DNA from: Haloplanus natans DSM 17983
GTDB taxonomy: Archaea > Halobacteriota > Halobacteria > Halobacteriales > Haloferacaceae
Length of the DNA: 64,000 nt
Assembly: GCF_000427685.1 (NCBI RefSeq)
Contig: NZ_ATYM01000003.1
Location: forward strand, 248,001-312,000
Direction: 5' to 3'
Positions within the stretch are counted from its first letter, which is position 1; the number at the start of each line of letters is the position of its first letter. Below are positions 32,226 through 46,614 of this stretch, in pieces. The position numbers and the translations under genes were made by a program. Under the pieces are notes generated by a model that made no database searches, was not told the origin of the DNA, and was given only the letters and a program-made list of their open reading frames with translations.

Positions 32226-32672
32226 GCCCTTCACCGCAGTAGATAAAGAATCGGAGAGGCGTCCAGTGGTGATGCCAACCACGGTTGCCCCTCAATTGCG
32301 AAGTACTTCGACCGCCGGGGTTCGGGGGCCATGCATCCACTCCGAGGATGCAGTTTACCATATGGCAAACAGAGATATAAGTTCATCGCCGTTTGATGTC
32401 TCGAAAACCCGCTTTCGACCGTCACCAGGCGCAAGAGTGGCAGATCAGGGAATCGGCTTCCGCCTGAACGTGCAGAGGCTCTTAGTGCCGGCCACCTCTA
32501 CGTCTCACCTCTCCTGCTAATCGTCCGAGATGGTCTCTCTGTCCACGTTTCGGCACCGGGTGTCCATAACAATTAAACAGTAAACATATATCGTCGAGTG
32601 TCGCTGCCTGTTATCGTCCGTCGTTCGACTTCGTGATAATGACTATCACTCTACCATTGTTCGAGGTGGGTG
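32226..32672 (+). promoter_or_regulatory. Upstream region of the acetone carboxylase operon
   Basis: No gene. Near the right end is an archaeal promoter-like segment, AAACAGTAAACATATATC at 32573-32590, about 85 bp before the ATG, and GAGGTGGGTG just upstream of the ATG at 32673 as a ribosome-binding site. Short direct and inverted AT motifs occur at 32345-32380 without clear symmetry. Confidence 0.45.
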
Positions 32673-34844
32673 ATGGCAAGTTCAGAAGACGATCCGTCCG
32701 AGCACCACAACGCGGAGATCCTGTCCATCGACGCTGGAGGGACGATGACGGATACGTTCCTCATGGACTCGAATGGCGAGTTCACCGTCGGGAAAGCCAA
32801 AACGACTCCCGACGACGAGTCCCGTGGATTTCTCAAATCATCGCAGGATGCTCTTGAAGACTGGAACCTCAGTGTTGCCGAGGGGTTCCCGAACCTCGTG
32901 TCCACGGTGTACTCCGGGACAGCGATGCTTAACCGACTCGTCGAACGGGAGAGCGAAGTCGATGTGGGGATCCTCATCACCGGCGGGATGGAGGACACGC
33001 TCCGAATGGGACGTGGCCGACAGTCGTACACCGGCTACTCCTACTCCGACCGGCTCCACGTCAACACGCACAAACACCCCGATCCCCTGATCCCGCGCAA
33101 CCGAATCCGCGGCGTTCGGGAGCGTATCGACGTTAAGGGGAACACGCTGGTTCCGCTTTACGAGGACGACGTTCGAGAGGGTGTCAACGACCTCCTGGAC
33201 CAAGGGGTTGACCACATCGTCGTCATGTACCTCCACTCGTACAAGAACGGGGAGCACGAACATCGAACCGAGGAGATTGCGATCGAGATCATCGAAGAAC
33301 GAGGGGCGGAAACGTCGGTCATGCTCTCCAGCGAGTACTACCCGACGCTGAAGGAGTCGGAACGGCTGAACACGGTCACAGCGGAGGCGTTCGCTGCCGA
33401 ACCGTCGCGTGACCAATTGTCGAACATTCAGGAGGCTGTCGACGATCAAGGAGGGGAAGTCGGCGTTCGCGTCATGGCGAGTCACGGCGGGACCATCGAC
33501 ATCAACGCCAACGAACTGGCTCGAACGCTGATCTCCGGGCCCATCGGTGGGATGATCGGTGCCAACTACTTCGGGCAGAAACTCGGATACGAGAATCTGG
33601 TCTGTACCGACATCGGTGGCACCAGTTTCGACATGGGCATCATCATCGATAACGACTGGCAGATCGACTACAGCCCAGAGATGGCGCGTCTGCTTCTGTC
33701 GCTGCCGATGGTGAACATGGAGAGCGTCGGGGCAGGGACGGGCAGTTACGTCCGAGTGAATCCCACGTTCGATAAAATCGAACTCGGCCCGGAGAGCGCG
33801 GGCGATCAGGTCGGCGTCAGCGCGGTCGAAACCGATGTCGAGACGGTGACGGTGACGGACTGCCATGTGGCGATGGGCTGGATCAACCCGGACAACTTCC
33901 TCGGCGGCGATATGCCCATCGACCGCGACGTGGCCGAACGCGAGATCAAAGAACAGATCGCCGACCCGCTCAACATGGGCATCTACGAGGCCGCACAGGG
34001 AGTCATCGACATCCTCGAGAGCAAACTCCGGAACGACCTCGAAGCCGTCGTGACCGGCGAGGGGTACGCCCCGTCGAATTTCAAGTGCCTCTCGTACGGC
34101 GGTGGCGGCCCGGTCCACACCGCCGGCTACACCAAGGATCTAGGATTCGACGAGGTACTCATCCCCGAGTGGGCGGCCGGCTTCTCGGCGTTCGGCTGTG
34201 GTGCTGCGGACTACGAGTACCGCTACGACCAGACCACAAGCATCGACATCGACGCCGACCTCACGATGGAGGAGGCCGCGGAAACCGCCGGCGCGAAGCT
34301 GACAGAAGTCTGGAAGAACCTCGAACAGAAGGTCGAAAACGAGTTCGAGAACAGCAACATCGGGCGGAGCGAAATCGAGTTCCAGTACAACATCCTCGGT
34401 CAGTACCAGGGCCAACTCAACAGCATCGACATCGAGTCGCCGGTGTCCCGCGCCGACTCGCCGCAGAAACTCGAACGACTTCTCGACACTTTCGAGGAGG
34501 GGTACCGCCGTCAGTACTCCGAGGAGGCTCGCTCGCCGGAACTCGGTCACACGATCACGCAGGCGTCCGTTCGCGGCGTCCGAGACGTGGTGAAACCGGA
34601 GATTCCGACGGAACGGCCGGTCGGATCCGAGCCGCCTGAAGAGGCGTACAAACACTCCCGAGAAGCCTACTGGGACGGCGAGTGGCTGGAGACCGATATC
34701 TACGACCTCCACGCGCTCCAGCCCGGCAACGAGTTGCAGGGTCCGGCGATCATGGAGGGGGCCGCCACGACGTACGCCCTCCCGCCGGACTGTGAAACCT
34801 GGCTCGACGAGCACCGCGTCCACCACCTGACCCGGACGGAGTGA
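32673..34844 (+). CDS. acxA: Acetone carboxylase beta subunit (HyuA-type ATPase)
   Basis: 723 residues from MASSEDDPSEHHNAEIL. ASKHA-type ATP-binding motifs: phosphate-1 LSIDAGGTMTDTF near residue 18, phosphate-2 VCTDIGGTSFDMGI near 312, adenosine region LSYGGGGPVHTAGY near 471. Length matches the ~717-residue AcxA subunit better than general hydantoinase A. It activates acetone and bicarbonate by phosphorylation with ATP in the alpha2beta2gamma2 carboxylase. First gene of the plus-strand operon; acetophenone carboxylase is the main alternative but normally has more subunits. Confidence 0.85.
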   Translation: MASSEDDPSEHHNAEILSIDAGGTMTDTFLMDSNGEFTVGKAKTTPDDESRGFLKSSQDALEDWNLSVAEGFPNLVSTVYSGTAMLNRLVERESEVDVGILITGGMEDTLRMGRGRQSYTGYSYSDRLHVNTHKHPDPLIPRNRIRGVRERIDVKGNTLVPLYEDDVREGVNDLLDQGVDHIVVMYLHSYKNGEHEHRTEEIAIEIIEERGAETSVMLSSEYYPTLKESERLNTVTAEAFAAEPSRDQLSNIQEAVDDQGGEVGVRVMASHGGTIDINANELARTLISGPIGGMIGANYFGQKLGYENLVCTDIGGTSFDMGIIIDNDWQIDYSPEMARLLLSLPMVNMESVGAGTGSYVRVNPTFDKIELGPESAGDQVGVSAVETDVETVTVTDCHVAMGWINPDNFLGGDMPIDRDVAEREIKEQIADPLNMGIYEAAQGVIDILESKLRNDLEAVVTGEGYAPSNFKCLSYGGGGPVHTAGYTKDLGFDEVLIPEWAAGFSAFGCGAADYEYRYDQTTSIDIDADLTMEEAAETAGAKLTEVWKNLEQKVENEFENSNIGRSEIEFQYNILGQYQGQLNSIDIESPVSRADSPQKLERLLDTFEEGYRRQYSEEARSPELGHTITQASVRGVRDVVKPEIPTERPVGSEPPEEAYKHSREAYWDGEWLETDIYDLHALQPGNELQGPAIMEGAATTYALPPDCETWLDEHRVHHLTRTE

Positions 34845-34984
34845 GAGCGGGCGACCGCTCTCGTGCAGAGATGCATCTGTCCCGCTCGTCGTTCCCAGCG
34901 AGCGACTCGGGGGGCAGGTGCACTGTACGAGCCCGTATCTGGCTCAGAACAGATGCCAACGTAACCGACGCAACTAAGCACACA

Positions 34985-37504
34985 ATGAGTTCGACACAAC
35001 ATGGGGAAGAGAACTTCCCCCGGATGCGACGCGAGAAAGAAAAGGTCCACGAGAAGCAGGCGAACGGCAAAGGGATCGGCTGGGGTGGCCAGTCGCTCCG
35101 CGAGCAGTTCGAGGACCTCGAAGAACGAACGGAGGAGACGGGCCACTACGCCGGCTTCGAGAAGCTCGAAATGAAACGCGAGCGGCCGATAGAGTACGAA
35201 CAGATGTTCGCCCAGCTCCGGGGTGACCTCGTGACCGCGCGCGAGACGTCGAAGGAGGTGGCCGCGACGCCCATCGTCGAGCAGGAGGGTGAACTCTGTT
35301 ACGGCCTGTTCACGCCGGAGGGCGATTCCATCGCCGTCTCGACGGGGATCATCGTGCACATCCACACGATGAGCGAGGCGATCAAGTACATGATCAACCA
35401 CGACTACGAGGAGAGTCCCGGGATCGAACCCGGCGATGTCTTCGTCAACAACGATCCACACGTCGGCGACGTTCACCCGTGTGACATCATGACGATGATT
35501 CCCATCTTCCACGAGGGAGAGCTCGTCGCGTGGGCAGGTGGCGTCAACCACGTCATCGACACCGGGGCCATCGGTCCTGGGAGCATGAACGTCTCGCAGG
35601 CGTCCCGCTTCGGCGACGGCGCCCACTACACCGCCCGCAAAATCGGCGAGGATCTGGAGCTGTACAACTCGTGGAAGAAGGACTATCCCGACAAGACGCG
35701 GACGCCGGACTTCCTGAAACTCGACGAGCGGACTCGCATGACCGGCTGTCTGATGATTCGGAACGCAGTCAACGACATCATCGACGAGTACGGCGTCGAG
35801 ACGTTCAAACAGCTCTCTCGCGAGGCCATTGAGGACGGCCGCCGTGGCTTCAGGAACCGCATCCGGAAGACGATGCTCCCCGGCACGTACCGGGGCGCGT
35901 CCTTCGTCGACGCCCTCTACGAGGGGCAGAGTAACCTGACACGCGCCTACGCGAACGAGAACCACCTGATGCACGCACCCTCGGAACTGCACGTCCGGGA
36001 GGACGGCTCGTTCCAAGTGTCGTTTGAGGGGGCGAACAAGTGGGGGTGGCATCCGTACAACTGCACGCCTGCGGCCATTCAGGGCGGTATCTGGGTGATG
36101 CTCACCCAGACCGTCATCCCGAACTCGAACGTCAACGACGGCGCGTACTACAGCTGTGACTTTCACCTCCCGGTGGGGTCGTGGGCGAATACCCAGAACA
36201 CGGAGACGGCTCACGCCTACGCGTGGCACTTCCTCGTCTCGGCGTGGGCACCCTTGTGGCAACACCTGTCACGCGGCTACTTCGCACGCGGCTTCTGGGA
36301 GGAGATCAACGCCGGCAACGCCAACACCTCGAACTGGCTGCAGGGCGGCGGCATCGACCAGTTCGACAAACTCCACGCCGTCAACTCCTTCGAGTCGGCG
36401 TGTGAGGGTGTCGGCGCACGCTACGTCGAGGACGGCGAACCGCACGCCGCGGCCATCTGGAACCCGGAGGGTGACATGGGCGACGCCGAGGTCTGGGAGA
36501 TGACCGAACCGCTCCCGTTCCTCGGTCGGTCGGTGAAGCCGAACACCGGCGGCGCGGGGCGGCGGGCCGGCGGGTCCGGCTTCGAGTCGATGCGGACGGT
36601 CAAGGACGTGAGCCGCTGGTTGCTCTACGAGATGGGCAACGGGTACATGACCAGCGACGGTGGCCTCTTCGGCGGCTATCCGGCCGCCTCGGGGTACATC
36701 CTCAATGCCCAGAACACGGATCTGCAGGAGCGCTTCGAGAATCAGGAGGACTACCCCCAGCACGACCTCGACCCGGAGAGCGGCGAGTTCGAGTCGAAAA
36801 TCGACGGGGAGATCACCCGTCGACCGGAGGGCATCAGCACGCCCAAGGAGTTCGACGACTACGACCTGTACCTGAACTACCTGCGTGGTGGCTCGGGACT
36901 AGGTGACCCGCTCGAACGCGACCCCGAAGACGTAGTCGACGACATCCACGACGGGTACGTCCTGCCGCGGCACGCGAAAGACGCGTACGCGGTGGTCGTG
37001 GAGAGAGTCGACGACGAAGCCCGACACAACTCCGCGGTCCACGGCGAGTACGAACTCGACCGCGAGGCGACCGAGGAACTCCGGGCCGAACGGATGACCG
37101 AACGGGCCGAGAAGGCCCAGCCCGTCTCCGAGTGGTACGACGAGGAGCGCGAGCGAATTCGCGAGCAGGACCTCATCGACGACGTGAAAAAGACCTACGA
37201 GAGCAGTATGCGCATGAGCAAGCAGTTCACCGACTTCTACCACGAGTTCTGGGAACTGCCCGACGACTTCGAGTGGGACCTGAGCGAGAAAGCCCAGCGC
37301 TCCCTCGAGGGTCGATTCAAGAGCGGCACGAAGATGAAGTGGGACAACCCGACCCACGGTCACGAAACGTGGCTGGACATCGGCCGCGACGACGAGCCGC
37401 GAGTGCCGTACACATGGAACGCCGACCGGTCGATTCAGGAGCTCTCGAGCCCGACTGCATCGTTCGGTGGAGTCACCACCGGAACAGCGACTGACGACGA
37501 CTGA
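34985..37504 (+). CDS. acxB: Acetone carboxylase alpha subunit (HyuB-type)
   Basis: 839 residues from MSSTQHGEENFPRMRREKEK. The HyuB core begins near 65 (ERPIEYEQMFAQLRGDLVTA) with TPIVEQEGELCYGLFTPEGD and the metal-site stretch FVNNDPHVGDVHPCDI near 153-168, which in characterised acetone carboxylases holds manganese ligands. GGWHPYNCTPAAIQGG-like and NTGGAGRRAGGSGFESMRTV segments follow. The C-terminal ~130 residues are charged. 140 bp after acxA, 11 bp before acxC. A near-copy lies at 41579-44077. Confidence 0.88.
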   Translation: MSSTQHGEENFPRMRREKEKVHEKQANGKGIGWGGQSLREQFEDLEERTEETGHYAGFEKLEMKRERPIEYEQMFAQLRGDLVTARETSKEVAATPIVEQEGELCYGLFTPEGDSIAVSTGIIVHIHTMSEAIKYMINHDYEESPGIEPGDVFVNNDPHVGDVHPCDIMTMIPIFHEGELVAWAGGVNHVIDTGAIGPGSMNVSQASRFGDGAHYTARKIGEDLELYNSWKKDYPDKTRTPDFLKLDERTRMTGCLMIRNAVNDIIDEYGVETFKQLSREAIEDGRRGFRNRIRKTMLPGTYRGASFVDALYEGQSNLTRAYANENHLMHAPSELHVREDGSFQVSFEGANKWGWHPYNCTPAAIQGGIWVMLTQTVIPNSNVNDGAYYSCDFHLPVGSWANTQNTETAHAYAWHFLVSAWAPLWQHLSRGYFARGFWEEINAGNANTSNWLQGGGIDQFDKLHAVNSFESACEGVGARYVEDGEPHAAAIWNPEGDMGDAEVWEMTEPLPFLGRSVKPNTGGAGRRAGGSGFESMRTVKDVSRWLLYEMGNGYMTSDGGLFGGYPAASGYILNAQNTDLQERFENQEDYPQHDLDPESGEFESKIDGEITRRPEGISTPKEFDDYDLYLNYLRGGSGLGDPLERDPEDVVDDIHDGYVLPRHAKDAYAVVVERVDDEARHNSAVHGEYELDREATEELRAERMTERAEKAQPVSEWYDEERERIREQDLIDDVKKTYESSMRMSKQFTDFYHEFWELPDDFEWDLSEKAQRSLEGRFKSGTKMKWDNPTHGHETWLDIGRDDEPRVPYTWNADRSIQELSSPTASFGGVTTGTATDDD

Positions 37505-37515
37505 GGTGAGAGACA

Positions 37516-38025
37516 ATGCCAGAATCATACCCACGCGAACACATCGAGGATCTCGTCGACGACAATCTGGAGTGGAATCAGCTCCACGACATGATGAGCG
37601 ATTTCAAGGACGCCGACCGGTTCCAGAAGGTCCGGGACGTCCTGCAGGAGCGGGTCGACTGGGATGACCCGATCATCATCCCGTACGCCGACCATCTGTA
37701 CGTCGTCGCGAAGTCGGCGGACCGCTGGGTCATCAAGTGCGACTGCGGCCACGAGTTCTGCGAACACGACCAGAACTGGAAGGCGGACGCGCTGATCAAC
37801 GTCCGGGACACGGAGGAACAGTACCTCGAAATCTACCCCGAGCAGATGCATCCGCATCCGGATTACATGGAACTGCGGGAGTTCTTTTGTCCCGGCTGTA
37901 ACACGCTGCTCGAAGTGACGAACGTCATGCCGGGCTACCCGCTCATCCACGAGTTCGAGCCCGACATCGAGACGTTCTACGAGGAGTGGATCGGGGAACC
38001 GATTCCGACGCCCGAGTCGGCGTAA
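37516..38025 (+). CDS. acxC: Acetone carboxylase gamma subunit
   Basis: 169 residues, the usual AcxC length. Zinc ligands are visible as C75/C77/C82 (IKCDCGHEFC) and C125/C128 (FFCPGCNTLLEV). The C-terminal ALINVRDTEEQYLEIYPEQM and PGYPLIHEFEPDIETFYEEW are typical of the subunit. It bridges the alpha and beta subunits in the hexamer. Eleven bases after acxB. Its presence is the best discriminator in favour of acetone carboxylase over generic hydantoinase. Confidence 0.88.
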   Translation: MPESYPREHIEDLVDDNLEWNQLHDMMSDFKDADRFQKVRDVLQERVDWDDPIIIPYADHLYVVAKSADRWVIKCDCGHEFCEHDQNWKADALINVRDTEEQYLEIYPEQMHPHPDYMELREFFCPGCNTLLEVTNVMPGYPLIHEFEPDIETFYEEWIGEPIPTPESA

Positions 38026-38084
38026 CCGAGCCCCAGCCGCCTTTCCTCAGATGCCTCTCACCGACACCACCACCGGAGCCAACG

Positions 38085-39662
38085 ATGTCTGAACACCGTC
38101 CCCCGACGCTGAAGGGCCTCTACGAGTCCACGCTCCGTCGGCACGCAACTGCGCCCGCCATCACGTTCGACGGCGAGACGCTGACCTACGCCGAACTCGA
38201 CTCACGGTCGGCCCGCGCTGCTGCTGCACTCCGCGAATGCGGCCTCGAAACGCCGGATCGCGTGGGCGTTCTCATGTCGAACCGGCTGGAGTACCCCATC
38301 ACTGATATCGGACTTACACGCGCCGGCCTCGTGAAAGTCCCGCTGAACGACATGCTCTCGGCAGGCGACATCGAGTATATGCTGGCAAACAGCGACGCGA
38401 GCGCCGTCGTCGTCGGTCCGAACTTCGTCGAGACCATCGCGACAGTCGCGCCGAACGTACCGACGCTGGAACACGTGATCACCGTCGACGCCTACGCTCC
38501 GGCCTCGATTGCGGAGCAGTATCGGACCGTTCGATTCGACCGGCTTCTCGACGAGGTAACTCCCGAACCACCGGCGGTGTCGGTCGGTCGGGAGACGCTC
38601 GCGGGCATCTTCCACACCGGCGGCACGACCGGCGATCCGAAGGGGGTGAAACACACACAGGAGAACCTCGCGTTGAACGCGTTCGCCCACGCCGTCGAAC
38701 TCGACATCTGCCCGCGCGAGACGCTGTTGTTGATGACGCCCCTGCCGCACTCGGCCGGACTCATCATGGCCGGTGGACTCACGCAGGGGTGTCGCCACGT
38801 TGTCACGCAAGGGTTCGACGCCCGGCGTGCGCTCGAAACCATCGAGCACGAGGGGGTGTCGTGGACGTTCATGGTGCCGACGATGATCTATCGCGTCCTC
38901 GACCTGCTCGGCGAGGAGTCGTACGACACCACGACGCTGGAGACGCTCGCCTACGGCGCCGCCCCGATGAAGCCGGCTCGACTGCGGGAGGGACTCGACC
39001 GACTGGGGCGCGTCTTCGTCCAGTTCTACGGCCAGTACGAAACGCCGGACCTTATCACGGTGCTGCCGAAACACGCCCACGACCCGGACGACGAGAAACG
39101 GCTCTCGTCCTGTGGTCTCCCCACGTCGATGTGTGAGGTGACCGTCGTTGACGACGACGGTGATCCGGTTCCGACCGGGGAGCCGGGTGAAATCCTCGCC
39201 CGTGGCGCCTACTCTATGGCGGGGTACTACGAGATGCCCGAGCGAACCGAGGAGACGATAGTCGACGGCTGGATCCACACCGGCGATATCGGCCGGATGG
39301 ACGAGGACGGCTACGTCTACATCCTCGACCGCGACTCCGACGTCATCATCACCGGCGGGATGAACGTGTACTCGGTTACCGTCGAAGACGTGATCCAGCA
39401 ACACGAACAGGTCGCGAACGTCGCCGTCATCGGCGTACCGGACGACGACTGGGGTGAGGCGGTCAAGGCCGTCGTCGTCCCGGAGGACGACACCGTGGAC
39501 CGAGCGGCACTCCTCGCGTTCTGTGCCGACCGGCTGGCCGACTACGAGACGCCGAAGTCCGTCGACATCGTCGAGTCGCTCCCGACGACGCCGTACGGAA
39601 AACTCGACAAGAAGCGGCTCCGCGAACCCTACTGGGCCGCCGAGGAGCGCGAAATCACCTGA
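38085..39662 (+). CDS. Acyl-CoA ligase (AMP-binding), possibly acetoacetyl-CoA forming
   Basis: 525 residues from MSEHRPPTLKGLYESTLRRH (ATG 38085, after about 60 bp). Adenylation motifs: HTGGTTGDPKGVKHT (A3) near 183, YGQYETPD (A5) near 321, HTGDIGRMDEDGYVYILDR (A7/A8) near 402, and PTTPYGKLDKKRL with the catalytic Lys near 509. In this operon the likely substrate is acetoacetate made by the carboxylase, giving acetoacetyl-CoA for thiolysis. Medium-chain or aryl acids cannot be excluded from sequence. Confidence 0.85.
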   Translation: MSEHRPPTLKGLYESTLRRHATAPAITFDGETLTYAELDSRSARAAAALRECGLETPDRVGVLMSNRLEYPITDIGLTRAGLVKVPLNDMLSAGDIEYMLANSDASAVVVGPNFVETIATVAPNVPTLEHVITVDAYAPASIAEQYRTVRFDRLLDEVTPEPPAVSVGRETLAGIFHTGGTTGDPKGVKHTQENLALNAFAHAVELDICPRETLLLMTPLPHSAGLIMAGGLTQGCRHVVTQGFDARRALETIEHEGVSWTFMVPTMIYRVLDLLGEESYDTTTLETLAYGAAPMKPARLREGLDRLGRVFVQFYGQYETPDLITVLPKHAHDPDDEKRLSSCGLPTSMCEVTVVDDDGDPVPTGEPGEILARGAYSMAGYYEMPERTEETIVDGWIHTGDIGRMDEDGYVYILDRDSDVIITGGMNVYSVTVEDVIQQHEQVANVAVIGVPDDDWGEAVKAVVVPEDDTVDRAALLAFCADRLADYETPKSVDIVESLPTTPYGKLDKKRLREPYWAAEEREIT

Positions 39663-39667
39663 CTGCG

Positions 39668-40090
39668 ATGATCACCAAAATCGACCACTTGGGGGTGCTC
39701 GTTTCGGATATCGACGCCAACGAGGCGCTGTTCGAACTGCTTGGGCTCGATGTCGGCGCCGTCGAACACGTCCCGGCTTTCGGCGTCGATATCGCGTTCA
39801 TCCGGGTCGGCGAGAGTCTCGTCGAACTGGTCGAACCGGTCGACCACGATAGCGACATTGCGGCCGACCTCCGCGCGGCGGACGACGACGCGCTTCTCCA
39901 CCACGTCGCCTACCGCGTCGAGGATATCGAGGCCGAGTTGGAGACGTTGCGCGCGGCGGGCGTCCCACTCGCCGACGAGACGCCCAGACGCGGGGCGGGC
40001 GATGCGCGGGTCGCCTTCCTCGATCCGGCGGCTGCGAACGGCGTCCGTGTCGAACTCGTGGAGCGACCGTCCGACGTGGCGCTCGACTGA
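39668..40090 (+). CDS. VOC-family protein, methylmalonyl-CoA epimerase-like
   Basis: 140 residues. Two beta-alpha-beta-beta-beta units with metal-ligand pattern: His7 (KIDHLGVLV), Glu in SLVELVEPV, His in LLHHVAYRV, Glu in VRVELVERP. This four-ligand set fits methylmalonyl-CoA epimerase and related lyases. Five bases after the ligase gene, so co-transcribed. It could handle a CoA thioester or remove toxic aldehydes formed from acetone metabolism; not decided. Confidence 0.75.
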   Translation: MITKIDHLGVLVSDIDANEALFELLGLDVGAVEHVPAFGVDIAFIRVGESLVELVEPVDHDSDIAADLRAADDDALLHHVAYRVEDIEAELETLRAAGVPLADETPRRGAGDARVAFLDPAAANGVRVELVERPSDVALD

Positions 40091-40439
40091 GCGGGGTCGC
40101 CGTCGCCGTCTCCAGGTGTGCCGGCGTCCGCCGACTGCACCCCGGTGGCGACTGTCACCCTCTCGTCGTGGCTCGCGTCGCGATTCGCTGTGAGCGACCG
40201 AAGGCAGTATCTGTTGATAAGATGAATACATATATCGTGTCGATTCGTGGTAACCATTAGGTCTACTGGTCGGGGTAAAACATACGCCTCGACTATCAGG
40301 GTTGCGCACCGGGAAGACGATGTGGTTGTCCCCCGTGTTTCACCGCACTGTACCGCATCGTCCCGCATCGAATGGGCCCACAATGAGAGACCGGACATGA
40401 TGAGCCGACACCTCGATCACACGGTAGTCGCCTGACACC
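40091..40439. other. Intergenic region upstream of the Bat-type regulator
   Basis: 349 bases without a supported gene. It includes an AT-rich promoter-like stretch GATGAATACATATATCG at 40219-40237 that could drive the regulator gene. Confidence 0.5.
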
Positions 40440-41120
40440 ATGCTTAGATTCGAATTTCAGATTCGTCTGGCCGGAATCCTTTCGCACATCCTCGATGTCT
40501 CCGAACAGGTCGAGAGTATCGAGATCGACAATGCGCTTCCGGTCACCGACGGCGGTGTCTTCCTTTTTCTGACGGTCAAGTTCGACGAGACCGTCTCGGA
40601 GACGGACATCGCGGGCCAGTTGCCCGACATGGACATCGTCAACATGAGTCAGGCGACGGTCAACTCGCAGATGTACTATCTCTGTGTCGTGACCGAGCTC
40701 GCGAACGTCTCCGTGCTGTCGCTACTGACTGAACAGCAGGCGATTCCGCACCGTATCGTCGGCGAGAACTCCCAGCTGTCGGTCGTGGCGTCGGTTCGCG
40801 ACTGGAATCATCTGAAGAAAGTTGCCAACACCATCGAAGACGAGCACGGGTCGCTCGAACTCATCGGGACAACCCAGACCGAGAGCGTCGGCTTCCCACT
40901 CGGGGGCGACAAAATAAAGCAGAGTATGTCGGGGAAGCTCTCCGACGCCCAGCTTGAGGTACTGGAGATGGCCTACCAGATGGGGTATTTCAAAGTTCCA
41001 CAGGAGGTGACGGCCGAAGAGATCGCCAACGAGCTGGACATCAGCAGGTCGACGCTGAGCGAACGGCTCCGTCGCGTTGAACACAACTTCTGTGCACTCC
41101 TTTTCGGCCCCCGCCAATGA
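40440..41120 (+). CDS. Bacterio-opsin-activator-type HTH regulator
   Basis: 226 residues. The C-terminal HTH_10 domain is clear: LSDAQLEVLEMAYQMGYFKV, PQEVTAEEIANELDISRSTL, SERLRRVEHN (residues ~165-215). The N-terminal ~150 residues (MLRFEFQIRLAGILSHILDV) resemble the ligand-sensing part of Bat-like proteins without PAS/GAF. Between two carboxylase gene groups and coupled (ATGA) to a Usp-like gene, it is the best candidate for the acetone-responsive regulator. Confidence 0.85.
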   Translation: MLRFEFQIRLAGILSHILDVSEQVESIEIDNALPVTDGGVFLFLTVKFDETVSETDIAGQLPDMDIVNMSQATVNSQMYYLCVVTELANVSVLSLLTEQQAIPHRIVGENSQLSVVASVRDWNHLKKVANTIEDEHGSLELIGTTQTESVGFPLGGDKIKQSMSGKLSDAQLEVLEMAYQMGYFKVPQEVTAEEIANELDISRSTLSERLRRVEHNFCALLFGPRQ

Positions 41121-41515
41121 CCACCATCATCATCATCAAGTCGGTCGACCAGGAACCGGCCGTCAGGGAGGTCCTCGAATCTGTCGTAGATGGGGACGAC
41201 ACCGTCTGTTTCCTTCGACTGCCAACCGTGCGGTGTCTCGGAGCCCTCATACAGGCCGTCAACCCCATGATCAACTACGGCATCGACTACAGTATCAACT
41301 GCCTTCCAGAGGGCTATGACACTGCTGATCTCGTTGAGTTCGCAATCGATGTCGACGCAAATCGGATCTGTATCGGTATTTCCGAAAAGACGCTGACCGG
41401 CAAGGCACGAATTGACGACCTGACACAGTCGATACTCCTCCACGATGACATCTCGGGCGATGTCATCGTCGGGGATAACGCCATCATTTTGGAGGAACTC
41501 GACTATGACGGGTAG
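41117..41515 (+). CDS. UspA-like single-domain protein
   Basis: 132 residues, ATG overlapping the regulator's TGA. MTTIIIIKSVDQEPAVREVL opens the fold, and LVEFAIDVDANRICIGISEK followed by TLTGKARIDDLTQSILLHDD corresponds to the Usp alpha/beta segment, though the ATP-binding G-x2-G-x9-G is not fully conserved. Possibly a small partner or sensor for the Bat-type regulator. Confidence 0.6.
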   Translation: MTTIIIIKSVDQEPAVREVLESVVDGDDTVCFLRLPTVRCLGALIQAVNPMINYGIDYSINCLPEGYDTADLVEFAIDVDANRICIGISEKTLTGKARIDDLTQSILLHDDISGDVIVGDNAIILEELDYDG

Positions 41516-41578
41516 TCCCGCTCGGCTCCCAAACGGGGACGCCGAAACCACCGCGATCTCACCCCACAGCCACTACTC

Positions 41579-44077
41579 ATGAGTTCGACTGATCAGACCA
41601 AGACGGAAGAACGACGTGCGGACGCACGACGCGAACTGACCAAAGTTCGAGAGAAACGCCAACGAGGCGAGGGAATCGGCTGGAACGGCAAGACGCTCCG
41701 CGAGCAACTCGCCAAACTTGAGGATAAGACCGAGGCGACGGATCACTACAATGGGCTGTCGACGCTCACGCTGAAGCAGGACGACCCGATTCGGTACGAG
41801 CAGCTGTACGCCCGACTCCGGGGTGATCTGGTGACCGCGCGCGAGATATCGAAAGAAGTCTCGGCGACGCCCATCGTCGAGCAGGAAGGCGAGCTGTGCT
41901 ATGGCCTATTCACGCCGGAGGGTGACTCGATCGCCGTCTCGACGGGGATCATCGTGCACATCCACACGATGAGCGAGGCGATCAAATTCATTATCAACCA
42001 CGATTACGAGGAAAATCCGAAGATCGAGCCAGGTGATATCTTCGTCAACAACGACCCCCACGTCGGAGACGTCCATCCTTGTGATCTAATGACACTCATC
42101 CCCATCTTCCACGAGGGAGAACTCGTCGCGTGGGCAGGCGGCGTCAACCACGTCATCGACACCGGAGCCATCGGCCCCGGAAGCATGAACGTCTCGCAGG
42201 CGTCCCGTTTCGGCGACGGCGCCTACTACACGGCCCGTAAAGTCGGTGAGGAGTTCGAACTGTACAATTCGTGGAAGAAAGAGTATCCCGCCAAAACACG
42301 GACACCGGACTTCCTGAAACTCGACGAGCGGACTCGCATGACCGGCTGTCTGATGATTCGGGATGCGGTCAAAGAGCTGATCGGCTCCATCGGGGTCGAT
42401 ACCTTCAAACAACTGTCTCGTGAGGCAGTTGAGGACGGTCGCAGAGGCTTCCGAAAGCGGATCAAGAAGACGATGTTACCCGGCACCTACCGGGGCGCGT
42501 CCTTCGTCGACGCCCTCTACGAGGGACAGGCGAATGTGACTCGCGAATACGCGAACGAGAATCACCTGATGCATGCGCCCTCGGAACTGCACATCCGAGA
42601 GGATGGTTCGTTCCAAGTGTCGTTTGAGGGGGCGAACAAGTGGGGGTGGCATCCGTACAACTGCACGCCAGCAGCTATTCAAGGCGGCGTCTGGGTGATG
42701 CTCACCCAGACCGTCATCCCCAACGAGCGGGTCAATGACGGCGCGTACTACGCCTGTGATTTTCATTTGCCGGTGGGTTCGTGGGCGAACACGCAGAACA
42801 CGGAGACGGCCCACGCCTACGCGTGGCACTTCCTCGTCTCGGCGTGGGCACCCTTGTGGCAACACCTCTCGCGAGGATACTACGCTCGGGGCTTCTGGGA
42901 GGAGATCAACGCGGGCAACGCCAACACGTCGAACTGGTTGCAGGGCGGCGGCATCGACCAGTTCGACAAACTCCACGCCGTCAACTCCTTCGAGGCTGCA
43001 TGTGAAGGTGTCGGCGCGCGCTACGTCGAGGACGGTGAACCCCACGCGTCGGCCGTCTGGAACCCCGAGGGCGACATGGGCGACGCGGAAGCGTGGGAAC
43101 GGGTCGAGCCACTACCGTTCCTTGGGCGGGCAGTGAAGCCAAATACGGGCGGCGCGGGTCGTCGGGCCGGTGGCTCGGGCTTCGAGTCGATGCGGACGGT
43201 CAAAGACGTGAGCCGCTGGCTGCTCTACGAGATGGGCAACGGGTACATGACCAGCGACGGCGGCCTGTTCGGCGGCTACCCGGCCGCCTCGGGCTACATC
43301 CTCAACGCCACAGATACCGACCTGCAAGAGCGCTTCGAGAATCAGGACGACTACCCCCAGCACGACCTCGACCCGGAGAGCGGCGAGTTCGAATCCAAGG
43401 TTGACGGGGAGATCACCCGTCGACCGGAGGGCATCAGCACGCCCAAGGAGTTCGACGACTACGACCTGTACCTGAACTACCTGCGTGGTGGCTCGGGACT
43501 GGGTGATCCGCTCGAACGCGACCCCGAAAACGTAGTCGACGACATCCACGACGGGTACGTCCTCCCACGACACGCGAAGGACGCGTACGCGGTGGTCGTG
43601 GAGAAAGTTGACGACGAAGCCCGACACAACTCCGCGGTTCACGGCGAGTATGAACTCGACCGCGAGGCGACCGAAAAGCTGCGGGCAGAACGGCTCGCAG
43701 AGCGGGCGGAGAAGGCCAAGCCCGTCTCGGAGTGGTACGAAGAGGAGCGCGAACGGATCCGTGAACAGAATCTCATCGATGACGTGAAAAAGACCTACGA
43801 GAGCAGTATGCGAATGAGTACCCCATTCGCGGACTTCTACCGCGAGTTCTGGGAGTTGTCCGAGGACTTCGAGTGGGATCTGAGCGAGAAGGCCCAGCGC
43901 TCTCTCGACAACCGGTTCGACACTGGCCTCCGCCCCATGTGGGACAATTACACACGACGACACAAAATTTGGCTCAACGTCGACGATGAACCGTACGTTC
44001 CATACACATGGCACGCGGACCGGTCGATCCAAGACCTCTCGGACATCGAATCGACATTCGGCGACGACGGTCGGTGA
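41579..44077 (+). CDS. acxB: Second acetone carboxylase alpha subunit (orphan paralogue)
   Basis: 832 residues. Matches the alpha subunit at 34985-37504 nearly throughout; the metal-site stretch FVNNDPHVGDVHPCDL is kept. Divergence is concentrated in the first ~75 residues and last ~60. At DNA level, blocks identical over dozens of bases alternate with blocks that differ at many third positions, suggesting gene conversion after duplication. No second beta or gamma gene follows, so it must share those subunits or be for a different substrate. Starts 64 bases after the Usp-like gene. Confidence 0.88.
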   Translation: MSSTDQTKTEERRADARRELTKVREKRQRGEGIGWNGKTLREQLAKLEDKTEATDHYNGLSTLTLKQDDPIRYEQLYARLRGDLVTAREISKEVSATPIVEQEGELCYGLFTPEGDSIAVSTGIIVHIHTMSEAIKFIINHDYEENPKIEPGDIFVNNDPHVGDVHPCDLMTLIPIFHEGELVAWAGGVNHVIDTGAIGPGSMNVSQASRFGDGAYYTARKVGEEFELYNSWKKEYPAKTRTPDFLKLDERTRMTGCLMIRDAVKELIGSIGVDTFKQLSREAVEDGRRGFRKRIKKTMLPGTYRGASFVDALYEGQANVTREYANENHLMHAPSELHIREDGSFQVSFEGANKWGWHPYNCTPAAIQGGVWVMLTQTVIPNERVNDGAYYACDFHLPVGSWANTQNTETAHAYAWHFLVSAWAPLWQHLSRGYYARGFWEEINAGNANTSNWLQGGGIDQFDKLHAVNSFEAACEGVGARYVEDGEPHASAVWNPEGDMGDAEAWERVEPLPFLGRAVKPNTGGAGRRAGGSGFESMRTVKDVSRWLLYEMGNGYMTSDGGLFGGYPAASGYILNATDTDLQERFENQDDYPQHDLDPESGEFESKVDGEITRRPEGISTPKEFDDYDLYLNYLRGGSGLGDPLERDPENVVDDIHDGYVLPRHAKDAYAVVVEKVDDEARHNSAVHGEYELDREATEKLRAERLAERAEKAKPVSEWYEEERERIREQNLIDDVKKTYESSMRMSTPFADFYREFWELSEDFEWDLSEKAQRSLDNRFDTGLRPMWDNYTRRHKIWLNVDDEPYVPYTWHADRSIQDLSDIESTFGDDGR

Positions 44078-45016: not shown

Positions 45017-45619
45017 ATGACTGACTACGAACTTGACCCCCTGCCGTATGACTACGACGCGCTCGAACCGCACATCAGCGAGCAGGTACTGACCTGGCAT
45101 CACGACACCCACCATCAGGGGTACGTGAACGGCTGGAACAGCGCCGAGGAGACGCTCGAAGCGAACCGTGACGACGGCGACTTCGGCTCCTCGGCGGGTG
45201 CGATTCGGAACGTCACGCACAACGGCTCCGGGCACATCCTCCACGACCTCTTCTGGAACTGCATGTCTCCGGAGGGTGGCGACGAGCCAAGCGGTGACCT
45301 CGCCGATCGCATCGAGGAGGACTTCGGCTCCTACGAGGCCTGGAAGGGTGAATTCGAGGCCGCTGCCGGCGCCGCCGGTGGCTGGGCACTCCTGGTGTAC
45401 GACAGCTTCTCGAACCAGCTTCGCAACGTCGTGGTCGACAAGCACGACCAGGGCGCGCTCTGGGGCTCGCACCCCATCCTCGCGCTGGACGTCTGGGAGC
45501 ACTCGTACTACCACGACTACGGTCCCGCCCGTGGCGACTTCATCGACAACTTCTTCGAGGTCGTCGACTGGGACGAACCGAGCGCCCGCTACGACGAAGC
45601 GGTTCAGCTGTTCGAATAG
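45017..45619 (+). CDS. sod: Superoxide dismutase (Fe/Mn family)
   Basis: 200 residues. Metal ligands: H28 (TWHHDTHHQGYVNG), H76 (HILHDLFWNC), D158 and H162 (LDVWEHSYYHDY). AGGWALLVYDSF corresponds to the GSGW segment. Converts superoxide to H2O2 and O2 in the cytoplasm; haloarchaeal enzymes are usually Mn-dependent. A relic of its promoter and start lies ~480 bp upstream. Confidence 0.95.
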   Translation: MTDYELDPLPYDYDALEPHISEQVLTWHHDTHHQGYVNGWNSAEETLEANRDDGDFGSSAGAIRNVTHNGSGHILHDLFWNCMSPEGGDEPSGDLADRIEEDFGSYEAWKGEFEAAAGAAGGWALLVYDSFSNQLRNVVVDKHDQGALWGSHPILALDVWEHSYYHDYGPARGDFIDNFFEVVDWDEPSARYDEAVQLFE

Positions 45620-45735: not shown

Positions 45736-46614
45736 ATGATAGAAAATATCCTCGTCGCGACTGATGGAAGTGATGCAGCGAAGCAGGCAACGAAGCACGC
45801 AGTGCGCATCGCAGCTGTCTCCGAAGCGACGATCCACGCTTTGCACGTCGTGTCGCCGCGGCTGCTCAGATTCCTCGAAGACAGCGCCGACCAAACGATC
45901 GAAACCGAGTCGTTCGGGGGAGAAGCCGTTCGGACAGCAGAGCAGATTGCCGACGAGGCGGGCGTGGGGATCCGGGCCTCTGTCGAACGCGGTAATCCGG
46001 CTGAGACGATTCTGTCATATGCGGAGTCGAACGACATTGATCTCATCACGATGGGGACACACGGACGGGCGGGCTTACCGCGATACGTCTTCGGAAGCGT
46101 CGCCGAGACCGTGCTTCGAACCGCGACCTGTCCTGTGTTGGCGGCACATGCTAGCGAGCAGTTGATGTCCTACGACGATATCCTCGTTCCGATCGCCGGT
46201 GAAAGGGAGGGCCGGAATGTTCCACAAATGGCAATCGACTTTGCAGAGCAGTTCGACGCTACGCTACATTTGGTACACGTCGTCGACCGTCGGCTGCTTG
46301 CGTCGTCATACGACCTATGTCCCGCGCGGCCCGATGTCGAGTCAGAGCTGAGTGAACGCGGTGAAGCGCTCCTCAGATCGGCGAAGGCACCGCTGGAGGC
46401 TGCGGGTATCGATTTCGGGACGCACTTGAAGAGTGGACTCCCCATCTCGCAGCTCCGCGAGTTCGTGACGACCGCTAATATCGACCTGGTGGTTATGTGG
46501 TCACACCGCCGACGCGGTCCTGATCGAGTCCTACAGGGCAGCGTTGCCGAGAGTCTACTGCGATCGGTGACGACGCCGATGCTGATGGTCAGCGACGAGA
46601 CCCAGACCGATTGA
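45736..46614 (+). CDS. Tandem universal stress protein
   Basis: 292 residues with two Usp domains: 1-140 (MIENILVATDGSDAAKQATK; ATP motif GTHGRAGLPRYVFGSVAE) and 145-290 (MSYDDILVPIAGEREGRNVP; altered motif MWSHRRRGPDRVLQGSVAES). The first domain has the full G-x2-G-x9-G-S signature, the second lacks the first Gly. Directly after sod (about 115 bp), possibly a stress-response pair. Confidence 0.88.
   Translation: MIENILVATDGSDAAKQATKHAVRIAAVSEATIHALHVVSPRLLRFLEDSADQTIETESFGGEAVRTAEQIADEAGVGIRASVERGNPAETILSYAESNDIDLITMGTHGRAGLPRYVFGSVAETVLRTATCPVLAAHASEQLMSYDDILVPIAGEREGRNVPQMAIDFAEQFDATLHLVHVVDRRLLASSYDLCPARPDVESELSERGEALLRSAKAPLEAAGIDFGTHLKSGLPISQLREFVTTANIDLVVMWSHRRRGPDRVLQGSVAESLLRSVTTPMLMVSDETQTD

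Follow-up and report, generated by a model that had tools for sequence, protein, structure and literature searches.

A haloarchaeal acetone carboxylase locus with two alpha subunit genes: gene conversion in the core and distinct ends

Introduction

The acetone carboxylases AcxABC of Xanthobacter autotrophicus and Aromatoleum (5m45, 5svb, 5svc) consist of a HyuA-type beta subunit, a HyuB-type alpha subunit and a gamma subunit, encoded in the order beta-alpha-gamma. One alpha gene per operon is usual, although not strictly defining. The solved structure has a dimer core made of two alpha subunits, with the beta interface anchored by helix-2 of alpha and gamma located mainly on alpha; H150, D153 and H175 of the X. 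autotrophicus alpha subunit are metal ligands and the switch residue E89 also binds the metal (PMC5543143). Acetophenone carboxylase (Apc) is likewise a ketone carboxylase, in which one subunit is present as two related paralogues, the HyuA-type subunits alpha and alpha', together with ApcE, and its operon contains a CoA ligase for the product. The C-terminal arm of the Apc subunit that is homologous to the acetone carboxylase alpha embraces gamma (PMC5214803).

In the open literature that we searched, no paper on a haloarchaeal acetone carboxylase was found. The polyploid haloarchaeon Haloferax volcanii is known for efficient gene conversion, which equalises its genome copies (PMC11276520). 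Here we describe an acetone carboxylase locus with two alpha genes from Haloplanus natans DSM 17983, located in a window of 64,000 nucleotides (contig NZ_ATYM01000003.1, positions 248,001 to 312,000), and follow it through the haloarchaea. Coordinates refer to this window unless stated otherwise.

Results

An acetone carboxylase locus with a second alpha gene

All genes of the locus are encoded on the plus strand, in the order beta-alpha1-gamma-CoA ligase-VOC-bat-small Rossmann protein-alpha2:

32670-34844, + strand: acetone carboxylase beta subunit (nucleotide-binding, HyuA-type); Pfam Hydantoinase_A and N/C domains, 5svb_B with E 6.6e-235
34985-37504, + strand: alpha1 subunit (Mn-site, HyuB-type); Pfam, alignment to 5m45
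37516-38025, + strand: gamma subunit; Pfam Acetone_carb_G, 5svb_C with E 2.4e-51
38085-39662 (ORF opens at 37986), + strand: AMP-dependent CoA ligase; Pfam AMP-binding, nearest solved structure a FadD8-type ligase
39668-40090, + strand: VOC protein near methylmalonyl-CoA epimerase; Pfam Glyoxalase_4, TIGR03081 at 102.6 bits, slightly below the cut-off
40440-41120, + strand: Bat-type regulator; Pfam HTH_10 9.5e-18, BAT 1.3e-6
41117-41515, + strand: small Rossmann-like protein, conserved partner of bat, "Usp-like" at best; AF2 model with pLDDT 91.5
41579-44077, + strand: alpha2 subunit; intact ORF, Pfam, alignment to 5m45

The alpha1 ORF spans 34841-37504, and 34985 is the likely start. The CoA ligase between gamma and the VOC gene is a correction to the original prediction; it probably activates the beta-keto acid product. 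The Bat-type regulator that had been proposed ahead of alpha2 is indeed encoded there, with both HTH_10 and BAT domains. Its small partner has no significant match in Pfam (best orthologue E 0.1), and the best Usp match of its model, Rv1636, reaches a TM score of 0.52, a weak structural similarity.

Alpha, beta and gamma each match the X. autotrophicus acetone carboxylase best, far above acetophenone carboxylase or hydantoinases; for alpha2 the E value is 1e-243 with 5m45 versus 4e-39 with Apc delta. The HyuA-type beta, HyuB-type alpha and Acetone_carb_G gamma in the order beta-alpha-gamma are the subunit set of Acx, here with two alpha genes in place of the usual one. There is one HyuA-type gene of this kind, and not the two that together with ApcE make up Apc. 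In the alignment to 5m45, residues E103, H164, D167 and H189 of alpha1 correspond to E89, H150, D153 and H175 of X. autotrophicus, and the equivalent positions in alpha2 are E105, H166, D169 and H191. Since all four metal-binding residues are kept, the active site of alpha2 is not degenerate. The locus is a variant among acetone carboxylase loci and not a new kind of system; it is real, conserved and unusual. Orthologous beta, alpha and gamma subunits, their gene order and the metal ligands are shared with AcxABC, whereas the second alpha, N- and C-terminal extensions, bat and the small Rossmann protein are additions of the haloarchaeal loci. Compared to Apc, the duplication concerns the other subunit: Apc has duplicated the ATP-binding HyuA subunit (30% identity), the haloarchaeal locus the metal-binding HyuB subunit (85% identity). 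Each of the 47 bacterial loci examined has one acx-type alpha and none has two; the second HyuB in one of them (L099) is a distant one.

A search of the whole genome agreed with the expectation of only one beta and one gamma of the acx type. A distant HyuA/HyuB-like pair on another contig (G000, contig C7, 2166437-2169813; 31% and 26% identity to beta and alpha, respectively) is probably a hydantoinase/oxoprolinase.

Gene conversion is confined to the core of the alpha pair

The two alpha genes are intact and co-oriented, and their cores are offset by 6600 bp, as the original prediction had stated (about 6.6 kb). They are 85.1% identical in amino acids and 83.3% in nucleotides over 830 codons. 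The divergence was checked for even distribution and is uneven: in 30-codon windows the nucleotide identity rises from 0.51 at the N-terminal end up to 0.98 around 36824, and it drops to 0.4-0.7 in the last approximately 70 codons. Exact matches extend over up to 98 nt (36803/43403), followed by runs of 62, 57 and three times 56 nt. The mosaic with strongly diverged ends that had been noticed in the sequence is therefore present.

Gene conversion was examined with the identity of silent codons between alpha1 of one genome and alpha2 of the same or a different genome, comparing matched and unmatched pairs by permutation. Silent identity in the core was 0.683 within genomes versus 0.598 across genomes (p=5e-5), while the ends, serving as negative control, had 0.513 and 0.506, respectively (p=0.27). 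Because the ends show no excess within the same genome, shared codon usage is an unlikely cause. The dS of the core was 0.69 within genomes and 1.00 across. In a tree of amino acids 541-700, the window (100/100), G145, G190, H. carboxidivorans and QS_4 each have their own alpha1 and alpha2 as sister sequences, with bootstrap support of 99-100. For the core tree (amino acids 101-760), a single alpha2 clade was compatible with the AU test (p 0.545), thus conversion of the core is patchy and not complete. Taken together, the alpha pair has undergone recurrent gene conversion that is confined to its core. As in Haloferax volcanii an efficient machinery is at work in this class, but in the alpha pair its targets are paralogues, and the ends are spared (PMC11276520).

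The conversion tracts vary by genome. In the window they cover amino acids 176-250, 276-350, about 376-425 and 601-700, the latter being the strongest:

36785-37084, + strand: main conversion tract in alpha1 (amino acids 601-700); silent identity to the own paralogue 0.81-0.90, higher than in any other comparison
36803-36900, + strand: exact run of 98 nt within the main tract, from the run comparison with alpha2
43385-43684, + strand: partner of the main tract in alpha2; exact runs, tree and silent sites
35510-36034, + strand: further conversion tracts in alpha1 (about amino acids 176-250 and 276-350); silent-site test
42110-42634, + strand: partners of the further tracts in alpha2; silent-site test

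Identical DNA blocks had been pointed out both around the metal site and in the middle-to-late part. Conversion accounts for the tracts listed above; the block at the metal site (amino acids 101-175) reflects amino-acid constraint, its silent sites being no closer to the own paralogue than to the copies of other genomes. A run-length permutation test of the GENECONV type was dropped in favour of the comparison of matched and unmatched pairs, being weak and with unclean controls (12 of 65 cross pairs with p<=0.05); it was significant in only some genomes, and in some controls as well. The alpha1 of Natronomonas LN261 was excluded from the core trees, and its apparent diverged block is an artefact of masked bases.

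Distribution and age of the two-alpha cassette

Combining an even draw, family scans and named records, we counted 17 two-alpha loci in haloarchaea from at least four families: Haloferacaceae (the window), the groups f4 and f7 (f7 being Natrialbaceae according to its named members) and Halococcaceae. Among the 391 genomes from the class in the even draw, 15 have a relative with at least about 79% identity and 11 of these have two alphas; the locus was found in none of the 11 same-genus genomes searched. The genes are usually arranged as beta-alpha1-gamma-ligase-VOC-bat-usp-alpha2. Natronolimnohabitans, QS_4 and H. dombrowskii have neither ligase nor VOC at that place, and the cassette of N. 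gelatinilyticum has no ligase and a VOC remnant; alpha2 is kept in all of these. Genome G145 has the order bat-usp-alpha2-beta-alpha1-gamma, and Haloquadratum and the LUM.70 genome carry bat-usp-beta-alpha-gamma with a single alpha. The second alpha had been called an orphan, which does not hold for a member of a conserved cassette in 17 loci. Loci with a single alpha, in Haloquadratum and others, are evidence that some lineages can do without alpha2.

Four of the named records are plasmids, with two alphas in N. gelatinilyticum, N. aibiense and H. dombrowskii and a chimeric alpha in N. bangense, and transposases or TnpB genes are located near some of them. The sporadic occurrence suggests horizontal spread and loss.

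In a tree of the ends (amino acids 1-80 plus 771-end), all 15 alpha2 form one clade (100/100) and single-alpha genes group with alpha1. Since alpha2 is one clade by its ends, the duplication is old. Diagnostic columns are found at 25 of 162 positions in the ends and 13 of 703 in the core, and the outgroup residues at these columns are split about evenly between the alpha1 and alpha2 states; thus the duplication probably precedes both alpha groups. A recent local tandem duplication was rejected with the conservation of the pair across families and the single alpha2 clade of the ends, as was a nesting of alpha2 in alpha1 or the reverse: with outgroup states about even, the root was taken between them. 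Haloterrigena sp. H1 and Natronomonas LN261 combine a usual alpha2 with a beta and alpha1 of the Haloquadratum-like lineage. The beta-alpha1 block appears to have been swapped independently of alpha2 in these two, and therefore alpha2 may be tolerant of its beta.

The median dN/dS between alpha2 orthologues is 0.049 in the core and 0.128 in the ends, similar to alpha1 (0.058 and 0.170). Purifying selection of this strength in the core argues that alpha2 is expressed and used. The alpha2 of Halorientalis regularis (locus L051, 16281-18754) has a frameshift near amino acid 575 and is either a pseudogene or affected by a sequencing error.

Crossover chimeras without gamma

Natribaculum breve and Natronorubrum bangense each have a single chimeric alpha with an alpha1 front and an alpha2 back. 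According to 38 diagnostic residues in each, the Natribaculum chimera is alpha1 up to amino acid 135 and alpha2 from 158, the Natronorubrum chimera alpha1 up to 390 and alpha2 from 489. The interior from gamma to usp has been lost entirely, and no gamma was found anywhere in either genome. The breakpoints differ, as do the positions in the beta tree, which indicates that recombination between the alpha copies caused the deletion twice, independently. Beta is intact in both genomes (dN/dS 0.02-0.05), and the chimeras are under constraint, with a dN/dS of 0.06-0.11 in the 3' part. It is possible that gamma-free enzymes work in these organisms. Directly after the chimeric alpha of Natronorubrum bangense, an IS607-like recombinase and a TnpB-like gene appear to be present by eye (L048, 12880-15226).

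A shared promoter element

Upstream of beta and of bat a common element, CATATnnC ... TTCGTGRYAA, was detected, with spacers of 37 and 7 nt in the window:

32585-32639, + strand: promoter element of the beta operon, CATATATC - 37 nt - TTCGTGATAA; aligned and conserved ahead of beta in the majority of 18 loci
40229-40253, + strand: promoter element of bat-usp-alpha2, CATATATC - 7 nt - TTCGTGGTAA; no mismatches, conserved ahead of bat in the majority of two-alpha loci

The 3.8-Mb genome contains each of these two spacing forms a single time. Because bat overlaps the small Rossmann gene and alpha2 begins 63 nt after the latter, bat-usp-alpha2 is probably one transcript. The two-part element shared by both promoters points to a common regulator of both units; in the simplest reading one regulator, plausibly Bat, would act on both. 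Alpha2 had been proposed to be separately induced, but with the same element in front of bat-usp-alpha2 and beta-alpha1-gamma, co-regulation would fit better. The distance from the element to the bat start (40254-40439, approximately 190 nt) is unusually long for haloarchaea and not conserved, and an Rfam search with this leader gave no match.

Discussion

The locus represents a natural experiment in archaea, in which conversion homogenises the catalytic core of two paralogues and selection keeps their ends distinct, and in which crossovers between the copies have twice generated chimeras without gamma. Copying of the core with differing ends suggests two interchangeable parts for one enzyme. 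The reading that we favour, with a probability of roughly 0.6, is that the two alphas are old duplicates that would serve as alternative or mixed-holoenzyme subunits sharing one beta. Both would be active HyuB-type subunits with an Mn site, would be produced under a single regulator and would assemble with the same beta into alternative (alpha2-beta-gamma)2 or mixed alpha1-alpha2 holoenzymes. Conversion would keep the conserved core with the metal site and the internal channel interchangeable, and the diverged ends, which would lie at the beta-contacting helix-2 and the gamma-embracing C-terminal arm, could tune partner binding, substrate range or stability. By comparison with the solved enzymes, the alpha-specific ends appear to fall at the partner-binding places (PMC5543143, PMC5214803); an AF2 model of alpha2 (pLDDT 56.6) was dropped for mapping the interfaces. 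The alternative alpha subunit of the original prediction is supported, with the addition that it must share the single beta, and gamma as well if alpha2 uses one. We infer this biochemical role of alpha2, and any use of gamma by it, from sequence comparisons. A bolder version, which we regard as possible but doubtful, is a carboxylase that is obligately alpha1-alpha2 or runs with alpha2 without gamma, in a genome that keeps the cores alike and the partner-binding ends different.

The chimeras could also be taken to mean that the C-terminal arm of alpha2 replaces or bypasses gamma, alpha2-beta being a two-subunit carboxylase or an assembly or storage form. In the two chimeric genomes an alpha2-type C-terminus and an intact beta are retained with no gamma anywhere, purifying selection acts on beta and on the 3' part of the chimeras, the C-terminal region ranks among the parts most specific to alpha2, and it is this arm that embraces gamma in Apc. 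However, a single crossover from alpha1 to alpha2 inevitably removes gamma and leaves an alpha2 C-terminus, so that the association has a mechanical origin; the divergence that was measured may for the most part be older than the deletions, and gamma is kept in every two-alpha locus mapped through that position, which makes this explanation unlikely. We give somewhat less credit to alpha2 as a redundant copy, kept merely for dosage or by hitch-hiking with the cassette. It would agree with the existence of single-alpha loci, with the mobile context (three plasmid-borne two-alpha copies, nearby transposases and TnpB genes) and with the absence from all same-genus genomes searched, but at least four families still have alpha2-specific ends though conversion could have erased them, the dN/dS of alpha2 is 0.05-0.13, and alpha2 was retained where ligase and VOC were lost.

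These two genes could also point to a separate specificity, in which alpha1 would carboxylate acetone and alpha2 another ketone, e.g. butanone, giving a chiral 2-methyl-3-keto acid that needs the VOC epimerase. Most two-alpha loci have a CoA ligase and a VOC protein like methylmalonyl-CoA epimerase encoded in the interval from alpha1 to alpha2, and neither was seen after gamma in the single-alpha operons that were mapped. Yet alpha2 persists without them or with a VOC remnant, and the homogenisation of the core, which contains the metal site and the greater part of alpha, works against separate specificities; we thus rate this as less probable still. That the likeness of the core results from protein constraint and shared codon usage without any conversion is hardly tenable: the core is the most conserved part across all genomes and the run-length test reached significance in only some genomes and in some controls too, but the excess at silent sites is specific to same-genome pairs and absent in the ends, which refutes it, and sister pairs within genomes have a support of 99-100.

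The locus makes the roles of gamma and of the alpha termini in a biotin-free carboxylase testable.

AtoE-type short-chain fatty acid transporter-like genes were seen by eye near acx in two loci (L048, 4443-5918; L056, 13460-14887), and in H. dombrowskii an alcohol dehydrogenase gene is located immediately upstream. In the window, genes for an Fe/Mn superoxide dismutase (45017-45619) and a two-domain Usp protein (45736-46614) follow 3' of alpha2, outside the conserved cassette.
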